From IMG/VR virus record IMGVR_UViG_3300033153_008305, positions 1 to 42,616 of that record: a DNA stretch of 42,616 bases; one strand, written 5' to 3'. The notes beneath the pieces are model-generated. The model searched no databases, was not told the origin of the DNA, and worked only from the letters and a program-made list of their open reading frames with translations. Shown here in pieces: positions 6,960-42,616 of this stretch. The DNA comes from a virus. Made by a program: the position numbers and the translations under genes. The number at the start of each line of letters is the position of its first letter. The stretch's first letter is position 1.

Positions 6960-6979
6960 ACTGTATCTTGACAATAGTC

Positions 6980-7972
6980 ATGAGTGACGACAAGCCCCCG
7001 CGCCCGGATATGGTCCGCGTTATGGATCACAAGGGGGAGTTTTTGTGGGCGCGTAAGGCGGGGCTTTCGAGGGCGCCCTTGCCGCGGCCGTTTCTCCAAT
7101 GGATGGGGGGCAAGGCGCGCAACTCGAAGCACATTCTTGCCGCGGTGCCCACGACGTTTCGAGACTACTATGAACCATTCCTAGGCGGCGGCGCTATTTA
7201 CTACGCACTCCACCGCGCGGGCCTGCTAGGCGGCTGCCACTGCAAAACGCGGCGCCAAAGGCGCACGTGTGAGTGTCGCAAGGTGCATTTGAACGACGCC
7301 AATGCGGACCTAATGACGGCGTGGGAAGCGGTTCGCGACGATGCTAGCGGCGTGGTGCAATGGCTATCCGAGCGCACGGGGTATCGTGATGAGTATCTTG
7401 GCGTCCGGGCGTGGGATAGGGACGCTGGCTTTAGGTCGCGGAGCGTGACCGAGCGCGGGGCTCGGATGATATACCTGACAAAGCTAGCGTTTGGTGGGAG
7501 CTACCGGGTAAATGGGGCGGGGCAGGCCCATCCTGCCTATGGGGGGATGTGTTTTCAATACAAGGGCAAAGAGTCCTATACCCGCACCTACTGCGACTCC
7601 CCAGCAATTCACGCGGCGTCAGCATCGCTGGCCGGCGTCAACTTGAGCTTTGGAGACTTCACCCGGGTCACATATACCGCGGGCGAAAACGACCTAGTGT
7701 TTCTTGATCCGCCCTACTGTGAGCCTACGGGCAACCATCATGGGCAAGAGTCGTATCGCTGCGGCGGTTTCACCGCCCACGCCCGGGTAGCCGATACATT
7801 CAGGCGCCTAGCCACCCGCGGCTGCCACGTCATCGCCTGCAATCATGACACACCCCAGGTGCGCGAGCTGTACCGTGGGTTTCGGATCGAGTCGTATGGG
7901 GTCCACAGGAAGATGACCAGCAACGCCGCGAAACGCCGCAAAGTATCCGAGGTCATCATCACCAACACCTAG
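6980..7972 (+). CDS. D12-class adenine-specific DNA methyltransferase, copy 1
   Basis: 330 residues. It shows the hallmarks of D12/Dam-type enzymes: PFLQWMGGKARNSKH, the AdoMet-binding EPFLGGGA near residue 66, LNDANADLM, and catalytic DPPY near residue 242. An unusual insert, CHCKTRRQRRTCECRK, near residues 86-101 has four cysteines as C-x-C...C-x-C and may bind zinc. It is conserved in the copy at 8414. The start is the ATG at 6980; a TTG at 6968 is possible and no strong ribosome binding site is seen. Copies 1 and 2 are roughly 70% identical by eye and have long near-identical DNA blocks at an offset of 1446 bases. Confidence 0.85.
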   Translation: MSDDKPPRPDMVRVMDHKGEFLWARKAGLSRAPLPRPFLQWMGGKARNSKHILAAVPTTFRDYYEPFLGGGAIYYALHRAGLLGGCHCKTRRQRRTCECRKVHLNDANADLMTAWEAVRDDASGVVQWLSERTGYRDEYLGVRAWDRDAGFRSRSVTERGARMIYLTKLAFGGSYRVNGAGQAHPAYGGMCFQYKGKESYTRTYCDSPAIHAASASLAGVNLSFGDFTRVTYTAGENDLVFLDPPYCEPTGNHHGQESYRCGGFTAHARVADTFRRLATRGCHVIACNHDTPQVRELYRGFRIESYGVHRKMTSNAAKRRKVSEVIITNT

Positions 7973-8028: not shown

Positions 8029-8427
8029 ATGGCAGACGACCCGCAAGATGGCGACCTGACACACGACGAGTTCGCTGTCCTCGAGGGGCGCATGAACGGG
8101 CGCTCTCCCCAGGATATCGCCGCCGAAATGGAGGCGTCGCTCGATTATGTATCGTCTCTCTTGTCATCAGCCATAGACAAGGTCGGTAGCTACGACGACT
8201 GGCGTAGCGAGCGCATCATCGACTTGATGCGTATTGACACACTGATTGAGGCCTATATGCCCTATGCTCTCAACGGCGAGCACAAGGCGGCAGATCAGGT
8301 GCGCGCGCTTATCGAGCGGCGGGCGAAGATGTTAGGCCTCGACGCGCCGAAAGCGCTCGAGGTGAGTGGCCGCGATGGCGATTCGATAGCAGAGTCTTGG
8401 GCCGAGCTTATTCGTGCTAGCGAGTAA
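8029..8427 (+). CDS. Terminase small subunit-like protein, copy 2
   Basis: 132 residues; a GTG at 7993 would add 12. The N-terminal HTH-like part is FAVLEGRMNGRSPQDIAAEM. The C-terminal part is RIDTLIEAYMPYALNG..KAADQV..LIERRAKMLGLDAP, matching copy 1 and the conserved tail of small-terminase-like phage proteins. It overlaps the second methyltransferase by 14 bases and lies one gene upstream of TerL. Assignment as TerS rests on this position and the family-like tail rather than a diagnostic domain. Confidence 0.6.
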   Translation: MADDPQDGDLTHDEFAVLEGRMNGRSPQDIAAEMEASLDYVSSLLSSAIDKVGSYDDWRSERIIDLMRIDTLIEAYMPYALNGEHKAADQVRALIERRAKMLGLDAPKALEVSGRDGDSIAESWAELIRASE

Positions 8428-9427
8428 CGACCCCGGCGCGGCACCCCGCCCGGATATGGTCCGCGTTATGGATCACCGTGGGGACATGGTTTGGGTCCGG
8501 CGGCGTAAGCAGGAACTCAACTGGCCCTTGCCGCGGCCGTTTATCGGGTGGGCCGGGGGCAAGGCCCGCAATTCGAAACACATTATGGCCGCCATACCGC
8601 CCGCGTTCGGGGACTACTACGAACCATTCCTAGGCGGCGGGGCTATCTTCTTCGCGCTTTATCGCGCGGGCCTGCTAGGCGGCTGCCACTGCAAAACGCG
8701 GCGCCAGCGGCGGCAATGCTCGTGTCGCAAAGTGCACTTGAATGATGCCAACGCGGATTTGATGACGGCGTGGGAAGCGGTGCGCGATGATGCCGAGGGC
8801 GTGGTCCAATGGCTATCAGAGCGCACGGGGTATCGTGATGAGTATTTCGAGATCCGGAGTTGGGACCATGACGGCGGGCTTGCCCCGCGGAGTGTTACCG
8901 AGCGCGGGGCTCGGATGATCTATATCAGCAAGTTGGCGTTTAGCGGACAATACGCCGTTGATAGGGCGGGGTGCTGTAGCTCTGGTTACGCGGGGATGGA
9001 TGCCCATGGCGGCGGATATTATTTCGATAGGAACCTCTGCGACGCCCCCGCGATCCGCGCGGCGTCAACATCACTAGTTGGCGCTACCCTAACCTATGGC
9101 GACTTTTCACGCGTCTATACCGCGTCCGAGGGCGACCTAGTGTTTCTTGATCCGCCATATTGCGAGCCCGTGGGTAATGTCTCAAAGCAAGCCGACTATC
9201 GCAAGGGTGGGTTCACCTCCCGAGACCACGCCCGCGTGGCCGATACGTTCAGGCGCCTAGCCAACCGCGGCTGCCACGTCATCGCGTGCAATCATGACAC
9301 ACCCCAGGTGCGGGAACTATACGACGGGTTCCGGATCGAGTCGTATGGGGTCAACCGGCTACTAACTAAATCCGCCGCCAAGCGCCGCAAAGTATCCGAG
9401 GTCATAATCACAACATGCCCACGATAG
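8414..9427 (+). CDS. D12-class adenine-specific DNA methyltransferase, copy 2
   Basis: 337 residues from a GTG inside the end of the previous gene. It has the same motif order as copy 1: PFIGWAGGKARNSKH, EPFLGGGA, the cysteine insert CHCKTRRQRRQCSCRK, LNDANADL, DPPY near residue 247, and a shared C-terminus NHDTPQVRELY. Divergence is concentrated between LNDANADL and DPPY, around nt 8940-9050. That region usually contains the target-recognition elements, so the two enzymes may differ in sequence specificity. It overlaps terL by 13 bases. Confidence 0.85.
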   Translation: MLASNDPGAAPRPDMVRVMDHRGDMVWVRRRKQELNWPLPRPFIGWAGGKARNSKHIMAAIPPAFGDYYEPFLGGGAIFFALYRAGLLGGCHCKTRRQRRQCSCRKVHLNDANADLMTAWEAVRDDAEGVVQWLSERTGYRDEYFEIRSWDHDGGLAPRSVTERGARMIYISKLAFSGQYAVDRAGCCSSGYAGMDAHGGGYYFDRNLCDAPAIRAASTSLVGATLTYGDFSRVYTASEGDLVFLDPPYCEPVGNVSKQADYRKGGFTSRDHARVADTFRRLANRGCHVIACNHDTPQVRELYDGFRIESYGVNRLLTKSAAKRRKVSEVIITTCPR

Positions 9428-16455: not shown

Positions 16456-16929
16456 ATGTTGCATCCAAAAACTGACCTAGTCAATCAAGTCAAGGTATCC
16501 GAAGCCGGGTCCCAGGCGGATTCGAGCGGCGACACTATCATCCTTACCGCCGGCGCCACGGAAGACGCTGTCGAGGTAACGGGTCTCACCATCGACCGTC
16601 TCGGTTATGAGTCTTGTGTTTTCGCGCTGGGGTCGATTGCGACGCTGGCCAATACCAAAACGATTAGCTTCGGCGTCAAGTATCAAACTAGCGCTGACGA
16701 TTCAACTTGGGACACGGCGGTCGTGTTGCAGGCTGCAACAGTGCTCGACACGGGCGATGGCGTGGCCACCACGTTCCACGGCGCGGTTGAGTTGGGTCTC
16801 AAGCTGTCTTCGTTGAAGCGATACATTCGTTTCAACATCACTCCTGACATGAGCGCCACGAGCGTTGATACGGCCATTTGGTCGGCAGTATGTATCCTTG
16901 CTGGCCCACGCGTTTTGCCGGCCGCCTAG
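16456..16929 (+). CDS. Putative head decoration or virion structural protein
   Basis: 157 residues following the capsid gene after an AAGGAAAGG leader. It is beta-rich and has no signal or membrane segment. The internal pattern SFGVKYQTSADDSTWD resembles small jelly-roll virion proteins. Its position right after the capsid gene is where decoration or stabilisation proteins usually lie. No family assigned with certainty. Confidence 0.6.
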   Translation: MLHPKTDLVNQVKVSEAGSQADSSGDTIILTAGATEDAVEVTGLTIDRLGYESCVFALGSIATLANTKTISFGVKYQTSADDSTWDTAVVLQAATVLDTGDGVATTFHGAVELGLKLSSLKRYIRFNITPDMSATSVDTAIWSAVCILAGPRVLPAA

Positions 16930-23842: not shown

Positions 23843-25416
23843 TGGCGTTTTTGAGCCTCAACGGTTGGGCCATCCCCACGGTGGAGTTCAGTCGCAATAC
23901 GCTACGCGTAGGCGACCGGGGTCGCGTGCATGGCGGCGAATGGATGGCGTATGACCGGTATACCAAGCGCGAATGGACGGCTCGCACATCACCCATGCCC
24001 GCCGATGACGCCAACGCCCTGGCGCATATGCTCCGCGGGCTAGGTCACCATTGGAGTTTCGACGACGAGACTCTGACCTCGTCGAATAGCTACAACATAG
24101 ACGCGGGCGGCACCTACTCAGTCATGGTTGGCACGGCAGCCGACGGCGCCGAGGTAGTCAACGGCGCGGCAAACGGCAAAGGGATTCAAGTCGACCCCGC
24201 AAGCGTCAACGTGCTAAGCGCCAATCAAGCCAGCGTAGAGACCGACACAACGGGCTTTACCGCGATCGACGGCGCAGCCCTGACGCAAGATGCGACTCAC
24301 TATTGGACAGGCACCAAGTCCCTCAAAGTCGTGACAAGCGGCGCGGTCAACTCGATAGCCGGGGGCGTAGAAACTGACGGCATCACGACGGGCATCGCCT
24401 ACTATTGTCTCGCGAGCGCATACGTCAAGGCCACGGCGGCCATCTCGGTCACCATCGATATGTATGACGCCGACGCCGTCCAGGCCGCGGGCGGTAGCGT
24501 CTATTCTTTGGAGGCGGGGAAGTGGCATCGTATCCGCGTGGGCCCCTGGCTCCGAGCCGCGACGACCGATCTCCGAGTACGGGTAACGGAGTCGGTGGCC
24601 GATAGCAACGTGACGTTCTACGTTGACGGCTTGCAACTCGAGACACTTAGCACCGCCACGATTGATTGGCCGCATACCGCTTGGATGGCGGGCGGCACGT
24701 CGCGCGCTTCGCCGGATGTGATCGCGTTTGATGACGCAACGTTTTTCGATCAGTTTACACAAGACTTCACGATCAACCTGTTTGCGTCGGTGCCGTCAAC
24801 GACCTTTACGTCGCAAACGATGGACCTGCTTTTTGCGCAGGATAGTCCGGCATGGAACGAAACACTAAGAATGCGCGTCCAAACTGGGGTCCTCTACGCT
24901 GGATACCGAAGCGGTGGATCTGGTGTCTCGACCCTGCAACGCGCGCTAGGGACAGACTGGGACGATGGCGGTAGCGCGGTTACCGGCGGCACGATAAAAA
25001 TGTGTACCATCGTGAGAAGAACGAAGCCCCTCGCGGATGGGTATAAAATGGCGCTCTACTTCGATGGGGTGCTAGCCCAAGGGCGGTCGAATACCGGCCC
25101 TGACGCTACTCAATTCGATTCGTTCTGGCTCGGCAACAATGGTCAGATAGGGGGCGGCGGGCAACAACATGGGGGGATAATCGACGAGCTAACGATGTGC
25201 CCATACCCTTGGTCGGCAAACATGATTGCGGCGGTGGCAGCCAATTCCAAGTTCGGCCCGATCCCAAAGCTCACAGCAACGGGCGACTTTCTCGATACCG
25301 GCTCAAGTCTGGACGTGTTCGCCGCCGAGATATCAATCAACCATGAGCCCGCGGTGCAAAGCAACGCGTGGGATAACGCGTCACGTAGCGTTTCGTTCAA
25401 ACTGATCGAACCATGA
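23842..25416 (+). CDS. Tail-tip protein with CBM-like and LamG-like domains
   Basis: 524 residues. Residues 1-75 resemble a short tail-attachment domain (WTARTSPMP.DDANALAHMLRG.GHHWSFDD). Residues ~115-275 form a carbohydrate-binding-module-like beta-sandwich (HYWTGTKSLKV..., VTFYVDGLQLE). Residues ~280-450 resemble a LamG/concanavalin jelly roll ending GGIIDELTMCPYPWSANMIAA. The C-terminal ~70 residues (DVFAAEISINHEPAVQSNAWDNASR) echo the previous gene's end (YAQAYSGGAWDNDMR), suggesting a related tail domain. It likely binds host-surface glycan. GTG start overlaps the previous stop. Confidence 0.7.
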   Translation: MAFLSLNGWAIPTVEFSRNTLRVGDRGRVHGGEWMAYDRYTKREWTARTSPMPADDANALAHMLRGLGHHWSFDDETLTSSNSYNIDAGGTYSVMVGTAADGAEVVNGAANGKGIQVDPASVNVLSANQASVETDTTGFTAIDGAALTQDATHYWTGTKSLKVVTSGAVNSIAGGVETDGITTGIAYYCLASAYVKATAAISVTIDMYDADAVQAAGGSVYSLEAGKWHRIRVGPWLRAATTDLRVRVTESVADSNVTFYVDGLQLETLSTATIDWPHTAWMAGGTSRASPDVIAFDDATFFDQFTQDFTINLFASVPSTTFTSQTMDLLFAQDSPAWNETLRMRVQTGVLYAGYRSGGSGVSTLQRALGTDWDDGGSAVTGGTIKMCTIVRRTKPLADGYKMALYFDGVLAQGRSNTGPDATQFDSFWLGNNGQIGGGGQQHGGIIDELTMCPYPWSANMIAAVAANSKFGPIPKLTATGDFLDTGSSLDVFAAEISINHEPAVQSNAWDNASRSVSFKLIEP

Positions 25417-27947
25417 AAACCATAAGCGCCACAAGAGAAGCCTACCTGGCTGCCCCCGCGAGGACCGACCATCTCCGCGTCGAGCTATATAGCAGTGGCT
25501 ACATCGATATGGGTAGCTGGAATAGCCACGATTGGGTTATCAGCGCGACCATAAGCGAGACCATCGACGGGCCGACGGCCACGGCCACGGTTCAGTTTTG
25601 GCGCGAGCGCGGGTCCGATAGCCTGTCGCCGTTGGTAAGCGGCTCAGTGTTGGCCATCGCCACAAACATGCGCATCTTCACCGCGACGTTGCCCGAGGGG
25701 TTGGTACCTCAGTACCCATCCGACTATACGCTATCGTTCATCGGCACCATCGACGATGTGGACATCGGCTCGGGAAACAAATCCCGCATCACCGTTCGCG
25801 CGCGCGACCTCGGCGGCGGGCTGCAAGACGCGTTCATCCAAGACGTGACCAAGTATGGATCCGGCGGCGGCAAGGCGCTCGAAGATGTGATCGACGACAT
25901 CCTGGGAGATTGGGCAAGTAGCCACACACTCACCACCGTCGGCACGCCGAGTTGGAGCCTGCTCGAGTACAAGCAAGTCAAAGAGCCTATCATGTCTGCT
26001 ATCCGCAAACTCACGGGTCAGATAGGTTGGGATGTCCGCTATCGGTGGAGCAACATCTCATCTGATTACGAGTTGACTCTCTACGAGCCAGCTCGCGCAG
26101 GCGGCATCGTTCGCACGTTCGGGCTAGATGACTACTTCGCGATCACACAAGCCTCGGTGAGTCGTCGCGATGTCCGCAATAAGATCGACATCATTTATCG
26201 CACGTCGCCGTCGGGCCCGCCGCTAACCTATAGCGCGCCATCGGCGGGGTCATCGACGCAGACAAAGTATGGTGTCCGCTATTGCCAAATAACGGAATCG
26301 AGCACCTCGAATATTGATAGCCTCGCCGAGGCCACGGTGATGGGCGATTCTATCCTTTCGGACCTCGAAGAGCCGTTGATAAGCCACGGCGCGGAGATGC
26401 CGTTTTTCTTCGCGGCAATGCTCGGGGATTATTATCGGTTTGCGGCCAATCATCTCTACGATTCGAATCAAGACCTCGCGGTTGTCGGAATAGAACACCG
26501 CTTCGGAGATGGCAAAGCGCGCACGATACTGACGTGCCGCGGCGTCCCCTCGGGAGGAACCGACCGCTGGCTTGAAAGTGACGCCCGCCCCGGGCTTGCC
26601 ACGGCGTCCGACAACTATAGTGACGTGGCGCCCACCTCGGTTGCGACTGCGTCAAATATAGGCACGGTCATCGTGACCTATGCTGACCCGCGCTCCGCGA
26701 CGCCCCCGGTGCCCGACTGGCGATACACCGAGTGCTACTGCGACACGAACGTTGATCCGGTAGACCTGGTAGCGCGGGGTAAGCAGACCCGCTTTGAAAT
26801 CGGCGGCCTTATCCCCGGCGAGACGTACTACACAAAGCTGAAAATCATCGATGATTCTGGCAACGTTTCCACCGAAGCGATATCCTCGGCGCAGGAAGTC
26901 AGCAAGGTATCAACCGGCGACATCGACCTATCGTCCAATATGTCGACACCGATCCCGAATTCGGAATTCGGCCAGCAATCTTCGGCCGCCGTGCCGCCTG
27001 ACAACTGGACGGTTTCAGCTGGCAGTTGGTCGGCGACGGGGGTGGGGAACATATATCTCGACACGACCGACGCCATCACCGGCGCCAATAGCCTCAAGTT
27101 CGAAGGCGAGCCGACTGACCCAGGCGGCGACCACACGACGCACATCACGAGTGACAAGGTGCCGTTGCGCGAGGGGCGTGTCTATTTGCTACGCGCCATC
27201 GTGAAGCGTCCGAGCGGCGACGCGTCAGACGTGGATATGCGCTTCGCGGCCGTTTACTATGACAAAGACGAGGCGCTGATTTCTGCCTTCAACCATTGCA
27301 CCCTAAGCGGCAAGGCGAGCGGCACCGATTGGACCCTCACAGGGGGCCAGCGCCAGCAACTCATCGGCGCCGCGGGCTGGTATCTGGTAGAGAAAGCGTT
27401 CATCCCACCCACCACGACGGCGTTCATGGCCGCGCGCATAGGCAAGAAGCGGGTCGGCGGTGGCGGCGGATCCAACGATGGGCACGATATTCTCGTAGAT
27501 TCATGTGTCATCGTGCCACACGTCGAAGAGGTACAGACGTATCTCAGTGGAGATCAGACGATAGGCACAGGCGCATGGGACCAAGTCGAACTCGACACCG
27601 AGACGATTGACACCGCGGCCGCTTTCGCCGTGGGGACTTACACTTGGACGGCGCCGTATACGGCGCGTTACCGCATCATCGGCCGCGCGGTATGGGACAA
27701 TCAAGACGCGGCGGCCATGACGGCCGCGCGCCTTACCCTCGGCGGGAGCCCCTGGAAGTACGGCCCCCCCGCGCTCGGAACGAACGCTTGGACGGTTGAT
27801 ACGAACGAAGTAGACTCGGGCGAAGTTGAGCTAGCAATCGGCGACACGGTCACCCTCGAAGTGAAACACGCTTCGGCGGGTGCCCAAGATCTGACATCTG
27901 GAGTTGACGCAACATCACTGCACATCGTGCAACTAGGAGGATTCTGA
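25413..27947 (+). CDS. Tail hub/tip protein with FN3, CBM-like and C1q-like domains
   Basis: 844 residues. The first ~380 resemble the baseplate-hub/tail-tip fold (gp27-like): an early WVISATISETIDGPTATATV, GTIDDVDIGSGNKSRITVRARD, LTGQIGWDVRYRW and later AMLGDYYRF. Residues ~400-490 resemble a fibronectin type III unit. Residues ~500-700 resemble a carbohydrate-binding sandwich, and ~720-844 a C1q/TNF-like jelly roll (GTYTWTAPYTARYRIIGRAVW). It probably forms the tail tip and displays receptor-binding domains. It overlaps its neighbour by four bases (ATGA). Confidence 0.75.
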   Translation: MKTISATREAYLAAPARTDHLRVELYSSGYIDMGSWNSHDWVISATISETIDGPTATATVQFWRERGSDSLSPLVSGSVLAIATNMRIFTATLPEGLVPQYPSDYTLSFIGTIDDVDIGSGNKSRITVRARDLGGGLQDAFIQDVTKYGSGGGKALEDVIDDILGDWASSHTLTTVGTPSWSLLEYKQVKEPIMSAIRKLTGQIGWDVRYRWSNISSDYELTLYEPARAGGIVRTFGLDDYFAITQASVSRRDVRNKIDIIYRTSPSGPPLTYSAPSAGSSTQTKYGVRYCQITESSTSNIDSLAEATVMGDSILSDLEEPLISHGAEMPFFFAAMLGDYYRFAANHLYDSNQDLAVVGIEHRFGDGKARTILTCRGVPSGGTDRWLESDARPGLATASDNYSDVAPTSVATASNIGTVIVTYADPRSATPPVPDWRYTECYCDTNVDPVDLVARGKQTRFEIGGLIPGETYYTKLKIIDDSGNVSTEAISSAQEVSKVSTGDIDLSSNMSTPIPNSEFGQQSSAAVPPDNWTVSAGSWSATGVGNIYLDTTDAITGANSLKFEGEPTDPGGDHTTHITSDKVPLREGRVYLLRAIVKRPSGDASDVDMRFAAVYYDKDEALISAFNHCTLSGKASGTDWTLTGGQRQQLIGAAGWYLVEKAFIPPTTTAFMAARIGKKRVGGGGGSNDGHDILVDSCVIVPHVEEVQTYLSGDQTIGTGAWDQVELDTETIDTAAAFAVGTYTWTAPYTARYRIIGRAVWDNQDAAAMTAARLTLGGSPWKYGPPALGTNAWTVDTNEVDSGEVELAIGDTVTLEVKHASAGAQDLTSGVDATSLHIVQLGGF

Positions 27948-27948
27948 C

Positions 27949-28464
27949 ATGAGACCATTTGCATTCTTGGCAGCGATGCTTTGCGCTTCGCTCGCCCATG
28001 CCCAGACAGATCACAAGCAAGGCTCCTGGTCTGACTGGATCGAACTCGGCGCCATGACCAACTGCAGTGTCGCATCAATAAACAGTGCGGTGATTTGCGG
28101 CAGTACTAGAGGCATCAAAGTACAGGGGTACAACTTCCTGACTCTCGAGATCCTCTATACCCAAAGCGCCGGCACTGGGTACAGTTTCTACCTCGAGACT
28201 TGCTACGAGGGCCACGCGTCAACCGATTGCACCGGGGCAACGGACTGGTACCGCGTCGTGACGGAGTCGGTGGTAGCGGGCACCGGGATTTCCCTGACAG
28301 CGGATCCGTTCATCCATTTGACGGCCGCCTCGGATCGAATCACCTACACCATCCCGATCAACTATCTACGGCTCAGGCTCAACGCCATGACGGCCAGCGG
28401 GTCGCCCGACGCCAATGACAAGATCACTGTAAGCGCGCGCCTGAACTGGGTCCCGAGCCTTTAG
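27949..28464 (+). CDS. Secreted-type tail-region protein with Sec signal peptide
   Basis: 171 residues after a strong AGGAGG. The N-terminus MRPFAFLAAMLCASLAHA|Q is a textbook type I signal peptide (AHA cleavage after residue 18). The mature part is beta-rich with six cysteines (for example NCSVAS, ICGST, CYEGH, DCTG), consistent with disulfides in an oxidising compartment. It lies between the tail hub and a fibre-like gene, where virion proteins are expected to stay cytoplasmic. Function unknown. Confidence 0.7.
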   Translation: MRPFAFLAAMLCASLAHAQTDHKQGSWSDWIELGAMTNCSVASINSAVICGSTRGIKVQGYNFLTLEILYTQSAGTGYSFYLETCYEGHASTDCTGATDWYRVVTESVVAGTGISLTADPFIHLTAASDRITYTIPINYLRLRLNAMTASGSPDANDKITVSARLNWVPSL

Positions 28465-28474
28465 GAGTTTCACA

Positions 28475-31400
28475 ATGCGACTACTCAAGACGTGTACCGT
28501 TTTGCTTTGCGCGGCCCTAGTCATGGGTAGCGCGGGCGTATCCAGAGTTAACCCAAAGGACGCTGGTAGCTCGGTGCTTTCCGGGCTTTATTCTTGGACC
28601 GGCGCAGAAACCAATTGCATCATCCAACTCGCGGCGGACGATATTTCTCCAGAGGTCGCGGTGCCAAGCGGATGTAGCACTAACGATGGCGGCAATATCC
28701 TCCTAACAGCCACCAACAGTGGCGACATCGCCATCACGACTTTTGATGGGGCACTGCCCGGGCAAATTTTGTACCTCATTGGTCAAGACGCCCTCGGCGG
28801 ATCCAACCTCACCACCATCGCAGACGCCAGTAACTTCACCCTTTCCCGAGCATGGTCGTCTGAGGATCAAGGGGCAGGCAACCCGGTGCTAGTCCTCATC
28901 ACCACGGCCACGGATACGTTCGTCGAGATAGGCCGTATCAACGGGCTCCGCGACTTCGACGCCGAGATGATTCAAAGTGCCACACTCAACGCGGCCAGCG
29001 GAGACGAGGTCTCGCTCGATATTCAGTACACGGTGAACAAGGCGTCGTCGGGCGATGATTATGGCATCCGTGTTCGCCAGACAGACACGGCTTCCCCGGG
29101 CACAAGCTACTTGCTCGACCTCGGCGTGGGCGCTGGAAGCAAGTTCACGGTCACCAACGCGGGCACCGTCTCGGTTACAGCGGCCATCGTCGGAGAGAAT
29201 TCCGAGACGTTACAGAATACGCCCGACGGATCTTGGACGGTGGCCGGATCTGGTGGCAGCAACAATGAAGACCTCGCCATCGATTTGGAGACCGCCGACA
29301 GCGTGATGCTCTCGAGTTCGACCGGCGTGGCAGTCATAGACAGCGGCGCAATCAACATCGCCGCCGCGGCCGCAAGTCTCTCAGGCAACATCACCCTCGA
29401 GTCGGGCGGCGCCATAGTCACGACCTCAGACGGTGATTTGGACCTGACTCCAAATGGGACAGGCGTTGTCGACGTCACTGACAGCGAGGTCCACATAGGC
29501 GATGGCACCTATTCCTTCGGGCATAGCCCGGTGCTCGCCTGCGAAGGCGCGGTGGAAGTGGACGGCGTCCTATATGCCGACGGCGGAATCGAGCTAACGA
29601 GCGCCGAGACCATCACCAACGCTGGCGACGGAGTAGTCGTTCTGACCGGCGTGGGCGGATCCAATAATGAGAACGCAAGTTTCGATTTGGAAAGCTCCGC
29701 AAACACCGTGGGTATCGGGACTAGCACCGGCGTCACGCTTTGGGATTGGGGCGCTCTCGGTCTTGCAAGCGGCTCGATTGACCTCTCAAGCGGGAACGCC
29801 ACATCGGTCGGAGATGTGGAGCTTGACTCTCTGACTTCGGCCGGCACCTCGATCACCACCAATTCATCGACACTTGTTTTGCAACAGAGTCTTGACGCGG
29901 CAAGCGGCAACGTCATCACGATGGACTCGCATGCCGATGCCGAGCTAACCGCTTCCAGCACGGCGCAGGTCTATCTTTTCGTGAACCCAGAAATTGAGCA
30001 AACCGGCAGCGCTTCATATTCGGCCATCGAAGTTGACGTCACCGAGACGTCAACTGGGTCAGGTTCCAACTTGCTACTCGACTTGCAGGTGGCCGACTCA
30101 AGTAAGTACTCGGTGTCAAACGCAGGCGTGGTAACGCTTTCCGGAGCGATCACGGGAGCGAATGGCGAGCTATTCGCCAATAGCACCGATAATCAGTGGG
30201 TGATGACGGATGTCGGCAGCCAGGGCGAAGCCCTAGCTATTGACCTTGGTTCAGTCGCGGACACCATCGGCCTTTCGTCAACAACGGGCGTGACCCTTAT
30301 TGACGCAGGCGCCATCGGCCTAGCTTCGGGCGCAATCGATCTTTCCGAGGGCAATCTCACCAACGGCGGTGACCTGGCCGCGGACTCGGTGACCGCGGAT
30401 TCAACCCAACTGGCCCTAAACTACACCACTCTTGTTGCCCAGCAAGGCGCGGATGCATCTAGCGGCGACGTCGTCACAATCGACTCCCACGCAGACGCCG
30501 AGATGACGGCTTCTAGCGGCTCACAGTCGTTCCTCGCTGTCCGCGGCGAAGTTGCTCAGTCCGGCACGTCCGCTTACACCGGGCTTGAAGTCGACATGAC
30601 GGAAACGTCTACAGGCTCCGGCGCAACGTTGCTGCTGGACCTGCAGGTAGCCGACTCGACATTGATGTCGGTCGACAGTAGCGGCAACATTGCAACCGCC
30701 GGCGCCGACTTCGGCACGTCAGCAAGCCCGTTCCATAATGCATTCGCGAATGTGTTGCGAGTTGGCACAGACGGATTTACCGCCGACGCCAACTATCCCT
30801 TGCACGTGAGCACAACCACTGCCGGCGGGGGTATGCGCTTCACGTCAGTCCAGAACACGGCCAGCGGTGTCAATCTGACACTCCACCAGGATTCATCGAG
30901 CCCAACCGGCGGCGACGTCGTTGCCCAGCTCAACATGAACGGCGAAGACGACGGCAGCGGAGACACGACGTATGCGAATCTCGCAGCGGAAATCGCGTCA
31001 TCGGGCGAAGCCGCGGGCAGTGAGCGCGGCATCATGCGACTGAAGGTCGTGGAGAACGCGGCGTCAACGGAGTACCTCCGACTTGACGCAACGGCCGCGG
31101 TGGAAGAAATCATAGCCAGCAAAACGCTCGACATGGGCGGCGCGGATATCCACGAGGCGGTCAACGTGTATAGGGATGCACCGACAAGCGACTCCCTACC
31201 GCCGGACCTCACCATAAGGGCAGCCGACGCTTGGCCGTTCGCCACAGGTGGCAACGCATCGGGCGGCGACCTATGGTTAGACAGTGGTATCGGTCAACGG
31301 ATCTACACAGTTTTGGATTATTCTCAGTGCAGCACAGACACTGTAACCATCGTGGTGAATGGGTCTGCGACGTCGGTGTTAACGGAGGGCAGCCAATGGA

Positions 31401-32290
31401 CCGCGTCGCCGGACAACGATACCACCGCCACATCTCTTGCCAGCGCCATCAACGCGGTGTCCAACATCAGTGCCACGGCCGTTGGCCCCATTGTTGGCAT
31501 CGTGCCCGGGCTCGGCGCGCATGATATCGACCTGGCGCGGTCGGATGGCACATGCACGAGTTTCGTCCAAAGCGTGACTAGCTACGTTCGCCTGGCCCAG
31601 GAAGCCCCGTTGTGTTTTGACCAAGATTGCAACACGACCCTTCGAGCCTCGGGGGATAACGAGCTTCGCTTCCACGTGGGCGGCGTTGGGCTTATGGATA
31701 TCATTACAACATCGGTCAAGATCGGCGGTGACCGTGACCTCGCTATGCAGGGCACAGGGTACATTCTCAGCCTGGCAGAAGCCTTGACCCTCGGCACAGA
31801 CAGCTCCCCGGGCCACGGCGGTGGCGTGGGCGACGTCATCGTGGGCGCCGATCTAGAAGTGGACGGTGTCGCAAGTTTTGACGGCGCGGTTGATGTGTAC
31901 GGCTCTGCCAACGGTGATGCCAAGGGGGCGAGTAGCACGATAACCCATCGCGCCGAAGCGCTCACTTGCACCAATGATGCGAGCCTTACGACGAGCGGCC
32001 TGATACCTGACGGCGCATTCCTTTATGGTGTATCAACTCGAATCACCACGGCCCTCGGCGGCAGCACGAGCTTCACGGCGGGCGATGGGGTCGACGTGGA
32101 TATCTTTGGGGCACAAGCCACCGTGACCCAGGGAGAGACAACGAGTCCGGCGGACTTCACCGCCAACGTCGCAAACCCGCAACTGGCCGCGGCCGAAGTG
32201 GTGTTGACGTTTGCTGGCGGCAACTGCACTTCTGGCGTGATCACGGTGGTGGCCCACGTCATGACATTCGTCGCGCCCACGAGTAACTAA
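28475..32290 (+). CDS. Very large repetitive fibre-like protein with Sec signal peptide
   Basis: 1271 residues. The N-terminus MRLLKTCTVLLCAALVMGSA|G looks like a Sec signal, AGGAG upstream. The remainder is Ser/Thr/Gly/Ala/Asp-rich beta structure with repeated ..STTGVTLIDAGAIGLASGAIDL units. A long internal repeat of about 186 residues (period 558 nt) has anchors TLVLQQ at nt 29870 and TLVAQQ at nt 30428, sharing DSHADAE.TASS and DVTETSTGSG..LLLDLQVADS. This looks like a trimeric beta-helical fibre or adhesin. The last ~80 residues form a possible head domain. Receptor binding is inferred from location and fold type. Confidence 0.7.
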   Translation: MRLLKTCTVLLCAALVMGSAGVSRVNPKDAGSSVLSGLYSWTGAETNCIIQLAADDISPEVAVPSGCSTNDGGNILLTATNSGDIAITTFDGALPGQILYLIGQDALGGSNLTTIADASNFTLSRAWSSEDQGAGNPVLVLITTATDTFVEIGRINGLRDFDAEMIQSATLNAASGDEVSLDIQYTVNKASSGDDYGIRVRQTDTASPGTSYLLDLGVGAGSKFTVTNAGTVSVTAAIVGENSETLQNTPDGSWTVAGSGGSNNEDLAIDLETADSVMLSSSTGVAVIDSGAINIAAAAASLSGNITLESGGAIVTTSDGDLDLTPNGTGVVDVTDSEVHIGDGTYSFGHSPVLACEGAVEVDGVLYADGGIELTSAETITNAGDGVVVLTGVGGSNNENASFDLESSANTVGIGTSTGVTLWDWGALGLASGSIDLSSGNATSVGDVELDSLTSAGTSITTNSSTLVLQQSLDAASGNVITMDSHADAELTASSTAQVYLFVNPEIEQTGSASYSAIEVDVTETSTGSGSNLLLDLQVADSSKYSVSNAGVVTLSGAITGANGELFANSTDNQWVMTDVGSQGEALAIDLGSVADTIGLSSTTGVTLIDAGAIGLASGAIDLSEGNLTNGGDLAADSVTADSTQLALNYTTLVAQQGADASSGDVVTIDSHADAEMTASSGSQSFLAVRGEVAQSGTSAYTGLEVDMTETSTGSGATLLLDLQVADSTLMSVDSSGNIATAGADFGTSASPFHNAFANVLRVGTDGFTADANYPLHVSTTTAGGGMRFTSVQNTASGVNLTLHQDSSSPTGGDVVAQLNMNGEDDGSGDTTYANLAAEIASSGEAAGSERGIMRLKVVENAASTEYLRLDATAAVEEIIASKTLDMGGADIHEAVNVYRDAPTSDSLPPDLTIRAADAWPFATGGNASGGDLWLDSGIGQRIYTVLDYSQCSTDTVTIVVNGSATSVLTEGSQWTASPDNDTTATSLASAINAVSNISATAVGPIVGIVPGLGAHDIDLARSDGTCTSFVQSVTSYVRLAQEAPLCFDQDCNTTLRASGDNELRFHVGGVGLMDIITTSVKIGGDRDLAMQGTGYILSLAEALTLGTDSSPGHGGGVGDVIVGADLEVDGVASFDGAVDVYGSANGDAKGASSTITHRAEALTCTNDASLTTSGLIPDGAFLYGVSTRITTALGGSTSFTAGDGVDVDIFGAQATVTQGETTSPADFTANVANPQLAAAEVVLTFAGGNCTSGVITVVAHVMTFVAPTSN

Positions 32291-32303
32291 CCAGGAGATC
32301 ATT

Positions 32304-32936
32304 ATGCAACGGAACATCATTATTGCTTTCGGGCTCCTGGCCATCGCGGCCGCCCCATCGGAGTACACTGCGCACACGGTCACAGTAGGCGCGGGCAACA
32401 TGACGCTGCCAGCATATACCCGCTCGGTTACGGTGGCGGCCTCGGCGGCGGTCCTCGGACCCACGGCTCCGTCGTTCGGCGAGAACGCCAGCGCCGCTGG
32501 GTTACTGTTGGCCATCGATGCTGAGAGCGTGCATGTTGATATGGAGCTAGCCGATTGTTGGGCGGGCGGATCCGGCGACGACGTTACACTCAAGATATAT
32601 TGGACGAATGAAGAAGAAGACGCGTTGGCCGATGGCGAGACGGTCAAGTTTGACATCGCGTATCGCAGCATCGTGTGGGGAACGGAGGGCGTCGATAACG
32701 GTAGCGAGGCCAGCGCAACCGTAACCTATACGCAGTCGGGAGCTGGCGCAGACGGCGACACGCACGAATCAGAACTGACCATACCTGCCACAGGCGGCAA
32801 TCAGCCGCTTGCGATGAACGACACGATCATGGTGCATCTCGACCGCGATGTGTCGACGGACACCTATTCTGGCGCGGCGCTCGTGGAGCGGTTCGAATTC
32901 GACTACTCGGCGACGTCGGTTTGCGATCACGACTAG
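32304..32936 (+). CDS. Fibre-associated protein with hydrophobic signal-like N-terminus
   Basis: 210 residues, AGGAG seven bases upstream. The N-terminus MQRNIIIAFGLLAIAAA resembles a signal peptide or membrane anchor. The rest is a beta-sandwich-like domain (DVTLKIYWTNEEEDALADGETVKFDIAYRS..., IMVHLDRDVSTDTYSGAALVERFEFDY) resembling receptor-binding or fibre-associated domains of phage tails. Third in the run of four exported-looking products. Confidence 0.65.
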   Translation: MQRNIIIAFGLLAIAAAPSEYTAHTVTVGAGNMTLPAYTRSVTVAASAAVLGPTAPSFGENASAAGLLLAIDAESVHVDMELADCWAGGSGDDVTLKIYWTNEEEDALADGETVKFDIAYRSIVWGTEGVDNGSEASATVTYTQSGAGADGDTHESELTIPATGGNQPLAMNDTIMVHLDRDVSTDTYSGAALVERFEFDYSATSVCDHD

Positions 32937-32966
32937 TTCCGACTTGAGACACACAAGAGGTAAGCG

Positions 32967-33293
32967 ATGAAAGTTGTGCGTTGGTTTGTGGCCGCCTTCG
33001 GCCTGGCGTTTGGGAGCGCCGCGGCAATCGTCGCGAGTGCGGACACTGGGGATCTAATCTATCTCCACCAAGGTGCGTCAGTTAGCGTCACGGCAGAGCA
33101 AGCCTCTGGCGTCGCGCTGTGGGCTATAGAGCAAGGGCTATGGGACGGCGCCCCGGGCGGGCTTCGGTCCATCCGCGTTTACGCGTGCAAGTCTGATACA
33201 GGCTTTTGCTGCAACATCACCGGCGTGAAAACGGCGGCGCCCGCGGATCTGCCTGTCGGATCTGGCGTACGTGTAGTGGGCATTGTCGAGTAG
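32967..33293 (+). CDS. Small exported protein with Sec signal peptide
   Basis: 108 residues after AAGAGGT. N-terminus MKVVRWFVAAFGLAFGSAAAIVASA|D is a clear Sec signal (ASA cleavage at 25). The mature ~83 residues contain YACKSDTGFCCNITG, with three cysteines, and end GSGVRVVGIVE. No family recognised. It is last before the lysis genes; it could be a virion-associated, periplasmic, or lysis-accessory protein. Confidence 0.65.
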   Translation: MKVVRWFVAAFGLAFGSAAAIVASADTGDLIYLHQGASVSVTAEQASGVALWAIEQGLWDGAPGGLRSIRVYACKSDTGFCCNITGVKTAAPADLPVGSGVRVVGIVE

Positions 33294-33897: not shown

Positions 33898-34046
33898 CCG
33901 CCTTCGCCGCGGTAGACCAAAGGCTCGAACCATCGCTCGAGGCCCGCTTGACATATGGCCTCGGATGGCTTGATCTATTCGCAGACGCCAGCTTCAAATC
34001 CACAAGGGATTGGCGAGCGCTGGCCGGCGTGAGGTTACGCTTTTGA
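33870..34046 (+). CDS. Startless ORF after holin, possible frameshift extension or short lysis protein
   Basis: Frame open from 33870 to TGA at 34044-34046 with no ATG or GTG; the first possible start is TTG 33948, leaving 32 residues. The product ends YGLGWLDLFADASFKSTRDW and LAGVRLRF, which looks like real protein and resembles an outer-membrane beta-hairpin. Its stop overlaps a TTG that is the likely amidase start (TTGA). It could be reached by -1 frameshifting from the holin near GGAAAAG (33872-33878). Unproven. Confidence 0.35.
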   Translation, partial: SGKATGGQLAAFAAVDQRLEPSLEARLTYGLGWLDLFADASFKSTRDWRALAGVRLRF

Positions 34047-34588
34047 GGATTATCAATTCGGTCCGAGAGTGCGCCGACGGGCGCGTGCGAGAGCGCGGTG
34101 AAGAGCCGCGGCAGGTGGTAATACACCGGTTTGGAGTGGAACATATCGACACCCCGGTAGAGATTGCAATCTGGTATCGGGACAATCCCGAATGGACAGG
34201 CGGGCAAATGCCCTACCACTACGTTGTGACGCCTTTCGGTGATGTTCACCAGTGCCTACAGCTCTCGGAGACCGGCGCCCACGCTAGACGGTTTAACCAC
34301 TCGTCGCTCGGAGTCGCCTGCATAGGGGACTTCCGCAGCATGCTCCCAACGGAATTGCAGTGGGGCAGTCTGACACAACTCTGTGCCGCCCTTGGCCAGC
34401 GCATGATCGGCGTTGACCGCCCGATACAGGATGTCATCTGGGGACACGACGGGCTGCCAGGCGCGGACCCCGATAAGGAGTGCCCGGGCCGGCATCTATC
34501 CATCGATGAATTGCACGCGCGGGTTGTAGCCTATTGGTCTGCTATGGCGTCGGTTGATCTGCAGTCAACTCGACCCATGCACCTATAG
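34043..34588 (+). CDS. Endolysin: N-acetylmuramoyl-L-alanine amidase
   Basis: 181 residues from TTG 34043 (GAGG at 34031-34034); an in-frame TTG at 34010 adds 11. It is an amidase-2/PGRP-fold enzyme: VVIHRFG supplies the first zinc His; MPYHYVVTPFGDVHQ and NHSSLGVACIGDF follow; the second zinc-site region is WGHDGLPGADPDKECPGRHLS. It cleaves the MurNAc-L-Ala bond of peptidoglycan at lysis. No signal peptide or wall-binding domain. Its 3' end converges with the repressor gene and overlaps it by 47 bases. Confidence 0.9.
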   Translation: MRIINSVRECADGRVRERGEEPRQVVIHRFGVEHIDTPVEIAIWYRDNPEWTGGQMPYHYVVTPFGDVHQCLQLSETGAHARRFNHSSLGVACIGDFRSMLPTELQWGSLTQLCAALGQRMIGVDRPIQDVIWGHDGLPGADPDKECPGRHLSIDELHARVVAYWSAMASVDLQSTRPMHL

Positions 34589-42396: not shown

Positions 42397-42616
42397 GCAT
42401 GGTTGACCCGCCGCCACCGCCGACCGGGCGCAATTCCGTGTTACCACCATATATCCAAGTACACAAGGGAGAAGCGCAAGAGCCCACCACAGGCCCGTCC
42501 GCGAGGATCGTGTTGCCGGCTCCCGTGCCTGATTGCCACACCCTCCCGCTTGAGTATATGCTTAGAGCGGACGTTACAGGACAGTCGTGGATCTTCAAGA
42601 CGCGGGTGAAGGGGGC
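42393..42616 (+). CDS. DUF927-family helicase, N-terminal part (continues at window start)
   Basis: ATG 42393 has AGGAGG at 42383-42388 and overlaps the upstream stop. The frame stays open to the window end. Its codons from 42471 onward match those from base 3 with several substitutions. It therefore supplies the true N-terminus (MSMVDPPPPPTGRNSVL) of the helicase gene. A second ATG at 42399 has a more distant ribosome binding site. Confidence 0.8.
   Translation, partial: MSMVDPPPPPTGRNSVLPPYIQVHKGEAQEPTTGPSARIVLPAPVPDCHTLPLEYMLRADVTGQSWIFKTRVKG
42469..42616. repeat. Right copy of imperfect terminal direct repeat
   Basis: 148 bases matching positions 1-148 with nine substitutions and no gaps. 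The match runs exactly to the window end, showing that the molecule closes on itself or is terminally redundant. Confidence 0.9.

Follow-up and report, generated by a model that had tools for sequence, protein, structure and literature searches.

Phage tail fibres are generally assumed to be assembled and attached inside the cytoplasm, and a run of fibre-region genes whose products all begin with export signals raises the question of where such proteins act, on the phage particle or on the host. Such a run, named P1 to P4 here, was pointed out by the first-pass annotation at 27949-33293 of a 42.6-kb virus record of an uncultured tailed phage, and the whole stretch of 42,616 nt that we analyzed is called the window. 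The evidence on P1-P4 comes from this one contig and is sequence-based.

Gene block and export signals

The window has a siphophage-type layout, in which terminase, portal, protease, capsid protein, adaptor, neck and major tail protein are followed by tail genes, namely a long ORF at the tape-measure position, distal tail proteins and the hub. The hub and the genes downstream of it are arranged as follows:

25413..27947, + strand: hub/tip protein, 844 aa, directly upstream of P1
27949..28464, + strand: P1, 171 aa; ATG start, ribosome-binding site AGGAGG; predicted signal peptide 1-18 (AHA/QT cleavage)
28475..32290, + strand: P2, 1271 aa; ATG start; predicted signal peptide 1-20 (GSA/GV), beta/repeat-rich fibre body, C-terminal foot 1149-1270
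31919..32287, + strand: foot domain of P2, residues about 1149-1271 in the alignment with 20 IMG/VR relatives
32304..32936, + strand: P3, 210 aa; ATG start; predicted signal peptide about 1-15/17 (AIA/AA)
32967..33293, + strand: P4, 108 aa; ATG start; predicted signal peptide 1-25 (ASA/DT), mature part 83 aa
33336..33897, + strand: two small ORFs of 104 and 84 aa, each with a hydrophobic stretch at its N-terminus, putatively holin-like by their position before the amidase
34010..34588, + strand: Amidase_2 endolysin (Pfam PF01510, E 2.7e-16; PHROG 822 amidase), the downstream border of the module

P1 starts 1 nt past the hub stop, and the gaps along hub-P1-P2-P3-P4 are 1, 10, 13 and 30 nt. No clear promoter of its own was found for the block, its base composition is the same as that of the rest of the window, and no integrase was detected in a scan that covered part of the window genes. 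The position given in the first-pass annotation, between the tail hub and the lysis-type genes (holin-like ORFs and amidase), was upheld, and the two small ORFs had no family match in PHROGs, Pfam or NCBIfam. The core of the hub (residues ~1-390) is common to distant siphophages, its C-terminal ~420 aa have no known relatives, and the protein had no match in PHROGs, Pfam or PDB; this extension, with no family match behind it, could be the receptor-binding tip of the virion.

Elsewhere in the window, positions 1-148 and 42469-42616 form a near-identical end repeat of ~148 nt with about ten differences, a hint that the genome is closed or circularly permuted and that the assembly diverges at its end. 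The DNA methyltransferase genes at 6968-7972 and 8414-9427 are paralogues, identical at 235 of 339 aligned positions and with one small ORF between them, and represent a tandem duplication. A tRNA-Pyl predicted by ARAGORN had no support from Rfam and was treated as spurious.

The four N-termini are of the signal type: P1 MRPFAFLAAMLCASLAHA/QT, P2 MRLLKTCTVLLCAALVMGSA/GV, P3 MQRNIIIAFGLLAIA/AA and P4 MKVVRWFVAAFGLAFGSAAAIVASA/DT. In each, a positively charged n-region is followed by a hydrophobic core free of charges and then by a small-x-small site. Since a purine-rich ribosome-binding site with normal spacing precedes all four ATGs, the start codons, and hence the N-termini, are credible. We scored the N-termini by a simple, home-made and untrained rule that asks for a positive n-region, a core without charges and small residues at -3 and -1, and obtained 10.2 for P1, 10.3 for P2, 11.3 for P3 and 10.6 for P4. 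Of the 57 putative genes of the window, the rule picked out P1-P4 and a single further, weak candidate (5.8); random sequence of the same composition passed in 2.5% of cases, and a score of at least 9 was reached by 25 of the 1565 genes in related phage loci (1.6%), two of those 25 being window genes themselves. Four adjacent Sec-type signal genes, as claimed by the first-pass annotation, were thus borne out against a background of 1.6-2.5%, and the chance of four in a row, assuming independence, is about 1e-5 to 1e-6. The same four-gene pattern was sought in the related phages, and no comparable run was found, the longest other run being two. The mature proteins are free of long hydrophobic segments, apart from one in P2 that is moderately hydrophobic and lies within its C-terminal beta domain, and inspection of the cleavage regions of P1-P4 revealed no lipobox Cys. 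Judged from these N-termini, P1-P4 are probably exported through Sec.

The alternative that misassigned starts, or N-termini hydrophobic by coincidence, mimic export signals is very improbable: the simplicity of the untrained rule speaks for it, and the good ribosome-binding site at each ATG and the low chance of four in a row speak against it, so that it is already largely refuted by the counts.

The foot of P2 and the cysteines of the module

P2 had no family match in Pfam, PHROGs or NCBIfam. In a tblastn search of annotated phages, its last ~122 residues were 33-37% identical to proteins from phages of Dinoroseobacter and Roseobacter (best E 2e-7, with R5C), and a three-sequence foot profile matched PDB 8gtc chain S with E 5e-18, a fibre present there as nine chains, that is, as the tail fibre trimers of the roseophage R4C virion. 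Previous studies placed the foot of the R4C fibre trimers at residues 118-230 and proposed surface binding (PMC10276861), and the foot of RcGTA was argued to bind sugar (PMC7296036). The roseophage foot proteins carry DUF2793 (PF10983; R5C_68 E 2.5e-26, RDJL gp74 E 8.4e-25), which is the tail fibre family of RcGTA (PMC10883770), and their genes stand right behind a GTA-like tail-tip gene. These fibres are misnamed "ribonuclease III" in PP882867, KY606587, KT266805, HM151342 and PDB 8gtc chain S, and are actually of the DUF2793 type. Because its foot is homologous to those of the R4C (vBDshSR4C_017/8GTC), R5C (R5C_68) and RDJL (gp74) fibres, P2 ends in a genuine receptor-contacting domain of a tail fibre, and the first-pass description of a 1271-residue fibre-like protein with a signal sequence was upheld. 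RcGTA Rcc00171 belongs to the same DUF2793 fibre family as the roseophage proteins; the alignments with P2 covered R4C, R5C and RDJL.

P2 nevertheless differs from the DUF2793 fibres in several respects. It has no DUF2793/rod docking part (no Pfam match to PF10983), it is five times longer than the 230 aa of R4C, and it has a Sec signal peptide, two new Cys and three further exported neighbours; moreover, the DUF2793 fibre gene comes right after the tail-tip gene in roseophages, whereas P2 comes one gene later. All 20 IMG/VR loci with the foot have DUF2793-type N-termini without a signal peptide, and a weak rule match in one of them (L008) lay inside the DUF2793 N-terminus and was discarded as a false positive. 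The mature part of P2 is also highly acidic, with 151 Asp+Glu against 30 Lys+Arg, compared with 104 against 65 in the hub.

The first-pass annotation was wrong about a six-cysteine protein in the block, since none of P1-P4 has six Cys: P1 has 5 (4 after cleavage, at 39, 50, 85 and 94), P2 has 11 (9), P3 has 2 and P4 has 3, all in its mature part. Within the foot, the Cys of the FDCG motif, which is present in 17 of the 20 IMG/VR relatives, is lost in P2, and C1165 and C1251 are gained. None of the 20 relatives has Cys at these two positions, which hold Gly/Ser/Ala and an invariant Phe, respectively (T130 and F212 in 8gtc chain S); some have other Cys elsewhere. Cys makes up 1.07% of the mature module (18/1679) versus 0.44% of the head-tail genes (22/5047; Fisher p = 0.004). 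Both the Cys swap in the foot and the raised Cys content of the module fit folding in an oxidising compartment, and C1165 and C1251 are candidates for a disulfide gained with export.

Relatives and comparable exported proteins

No relatives of P1, P3 and P4 were found by protein search or in PHROGs or Pfam, and neither P1 nor P2 had relatives in an IMG/VR pattern search. The window DNA had no close relative among INPHARED phages. P2 had no relative in 25 terminase-related phages, none in 395 genomes of the phylum of a hub relative (a search made without a positive control), and its first 2.3 kb had no plasmid match. P1 had no detectable similarity to the head protein at 16456-16929. A single-sequence AlphaFold model of P1 was all-beta at low confidence (pLDDT 52), with only low TM-score matches in a fold search, and a model of P3 built with no alignment was beta-rich, again at low confidence (pLDDT 49). 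P1-P4 had no Pfam match at E <= 0.1, including the Ail/Lom beta-barrel domain. The absence of this domain led us to reject them as Lom-type outer membrane proteins, and they were likewise rejected as lysis proteins (SAR endolysin, spanins), having no lysis-family match in PHROGs or Pfam, with the amidase lying downstream at 34010-34588.

The hub had relatives in IMG/VR at 30-39% identity, in one Gemmatimonas MAG and in 6 of the 395 genomes of that phylum. These relatives carry unrelated genes where P1-P4 stand. Among 15 IMG/VR hub loci and prophages of the Gemmatimonas phylum, no run of signal genes was present behind the hub in those with readable downstream DNA; several of these loci end at the hub and so fall outside this comparison. 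With no such run behind their hubs, the four-signal pattern is therefore without counterpart in the visible distant kin.

Exported fibre-like proteins did occur in other uncultured phages. A terminase- and hub-related phage (G016) encodes a 285-aa protein (L109 8016-8873, - strand; group L109/L177) with the signal ADA/Q, AELNTMDG repeats and several mature Cys, upstream of a putative adaptor gene and with a phrog_1732 neighbour, and another phage (G010) encodes a 251-aa protein (L165 1754-2509) with the signal ASA/G and four Cys. Two diverged phages share AELNTMDG-repeat proteins with a common lipobox-type N-terminus (FTGC/AGLQG; L201 5812-7029 and L202 2160-3197), encoded downstream of a large ORF that occupies the portal position and upstream of one at the capsid position, the roles of these neighbours being assigned by size and order. 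From their motifs, the L201 and L202 proteins are putative fibre lipoproteins. Other AELNTMDG-repeat proteins, including those of marine phage isolates, have no signal. Like P1-P4, the proteins of L109/L177, L165, L201 and L202 combine a signal or lipobox with a repeat- or beta-rich protein inside a structural block, but they are single genes in the head block rather than four behind the hub, and no similarity between them and P1-P4 was demonstrated.

Possible roles of the probably exported products

From the signals, gene spacing and Cys content, we consider it probable that P1-P4 form a late, hub-coupled module that is exported through Sec, loses its signal peptides and folds with disulfides in an oxidising compartment; cleavage, disulfides and extracytoplasmic location are all inferred. 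An exported fibre module, as the first-pass annotation had it, agrees with the signals, the foot, the Cys shift and the similar proteins elsewhere, whereas the word "entire" is not borne out, as the hub extension could be the tip and relatives were detected for only one of the four proteins. The choice among surface display, post-lysis decoration, receptor masking and an anti-competitor system is not one that the sequence decides. We lean slightly towards a host-side role over attachment to the particle, and tentatively place P1-P4 outside the cytoplasm in receptor or envelope occupancy. In this view, P2 would descend from a tail fibre and have retained the receptor-contacting foot; it lacks the DUF2793 docking part and bears an export signal. 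Once set free, either at the surface or by lysis, it would occupy the host surface structure to which the phage itself binds, P1, P3 and P4 acting as its partners or as further binders, and an occupied receptor would prevent progeny from adhering to infected cells or debris and would exclude superinfection.

Several observations favour this host-side reading: four consecutive signals supported by ribosome-binding sites over a background of ~1.6-2.5%, gaps of 1-30 nt that couple the genes to the hub in the absence of a clear promoter of their own, a retained foot homologous to the R4C, R5C and RDJL tail fibres, a docking DUF2793/rod part that the foot-bearing relatives have and P2 lacks, a foot in which two new Cys appear and the usual one is gone, within a Cys-enriched module, and the analogues in L201 and L202, lipidated by motif. 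Moreover, exported proteins that block the phage's own receptor are known in T5 (Llp), T1 and phi80 (Cor) and as Rtp45 (PMC9586334, PMC12685063). Like these, P1-P4 are phage-encoded and, by the rule, exported, while action on the phage's own receptor is for P1-P4 only proposed here. Llp and Cor are, however, small lipoproteins of other sequence, whereas P2, a 1271-residue fibre with a foot, no lipobox and three companions, is linked to late tail genes, so that the module is unlike the best-studied exclusion proteins; these are said to be made early, and T5 Llp is periplasmic (PMC9586334). In a Gram-negative host, Sec alone would leave P2 in the periplasm until lysis. P1, P3 and P4 offer no relatives for comparing signal conservation, the missing DUF2793 part may merely reflect an unrelated hub, and the place of P2 behind the tail-tip gene, as for virion fibres in roseophages, favours a virion role.

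Such a virion role would require late assembly outside the cytoplasm, with P1-P4 as fibre or decoration proteins that are exported, form periplasmic disulfides and attach on release at lysis, which we regard as possible and somewhat unlikely. T4 tail fibres and P22 tailspikes are attached last, also in vitro, and the foot domain and gene position of P2 are as in virion fibres; the signal-bearing fibre-like proteins inside head-gene blocks (L109, L165, L201, L202) point the same way. Lysis, however, would rapidly dilute exported proteins, those of the L201/L202 type, lipidated by motif, should remain with membranes, and P2 is missing the known docking domain. The wider proposal, that some tailed phages of uncultured hosts export fibres or decoration proteins through Sec, form their disulfides in the periplasm and add them on release, the window and the head-block proteins representing one unrecognised route, is doubtful. 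It is improbable that the N-termini are uncleaved docking peptides held in hydrophobic pockets of the particle, with fibres assembled in the cytoplasm as usual. RcGTA head fibres do dock through a repeated-(iso)leucine peptide in hydrophobic pockets (PMC7296036), but the order of positive n-region, core and small-x-small site is correct in all four N-termini here, such a peptide would have to be present in four different proteins, the Cys change in the foot would be left unexplained, and the lipobox of the analogous L201/L202 proteins points to real export signals.

Still less probable is a moron cassette that alters the host surface or serves adhesion, unlinked to phage adsorption, with a borrowed fibre domain and placed by chance behind the tail-tip gene. 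The lambda lom gene is an exported accessory gene in that very location, and Lom-type proteins resemble P1-P4 in signal peptide and position, but Lom is an outer-membrane beta-barrel family and P1-P4 are without Pfam match. The unrelated genes that hub relatives carry at this place agree with a cassette, while the shared strand, the close spacing, the lack of an own promoter, the uniform base composition and the absence of an integrase among the genes scanned argue against one.

A search of titles and abstracts in the open literature found no description of an exported fibre block of this kind, although its absence there is unproven. Four exported fibre-region genes, including one with a true foot, would mean either secreted receptor blockers made from re-used domains or virions completed outside the cytoplasm. 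Both outcomes are directly testable, and either would alter the annotation of signal peptides encoded among phage structural genes.
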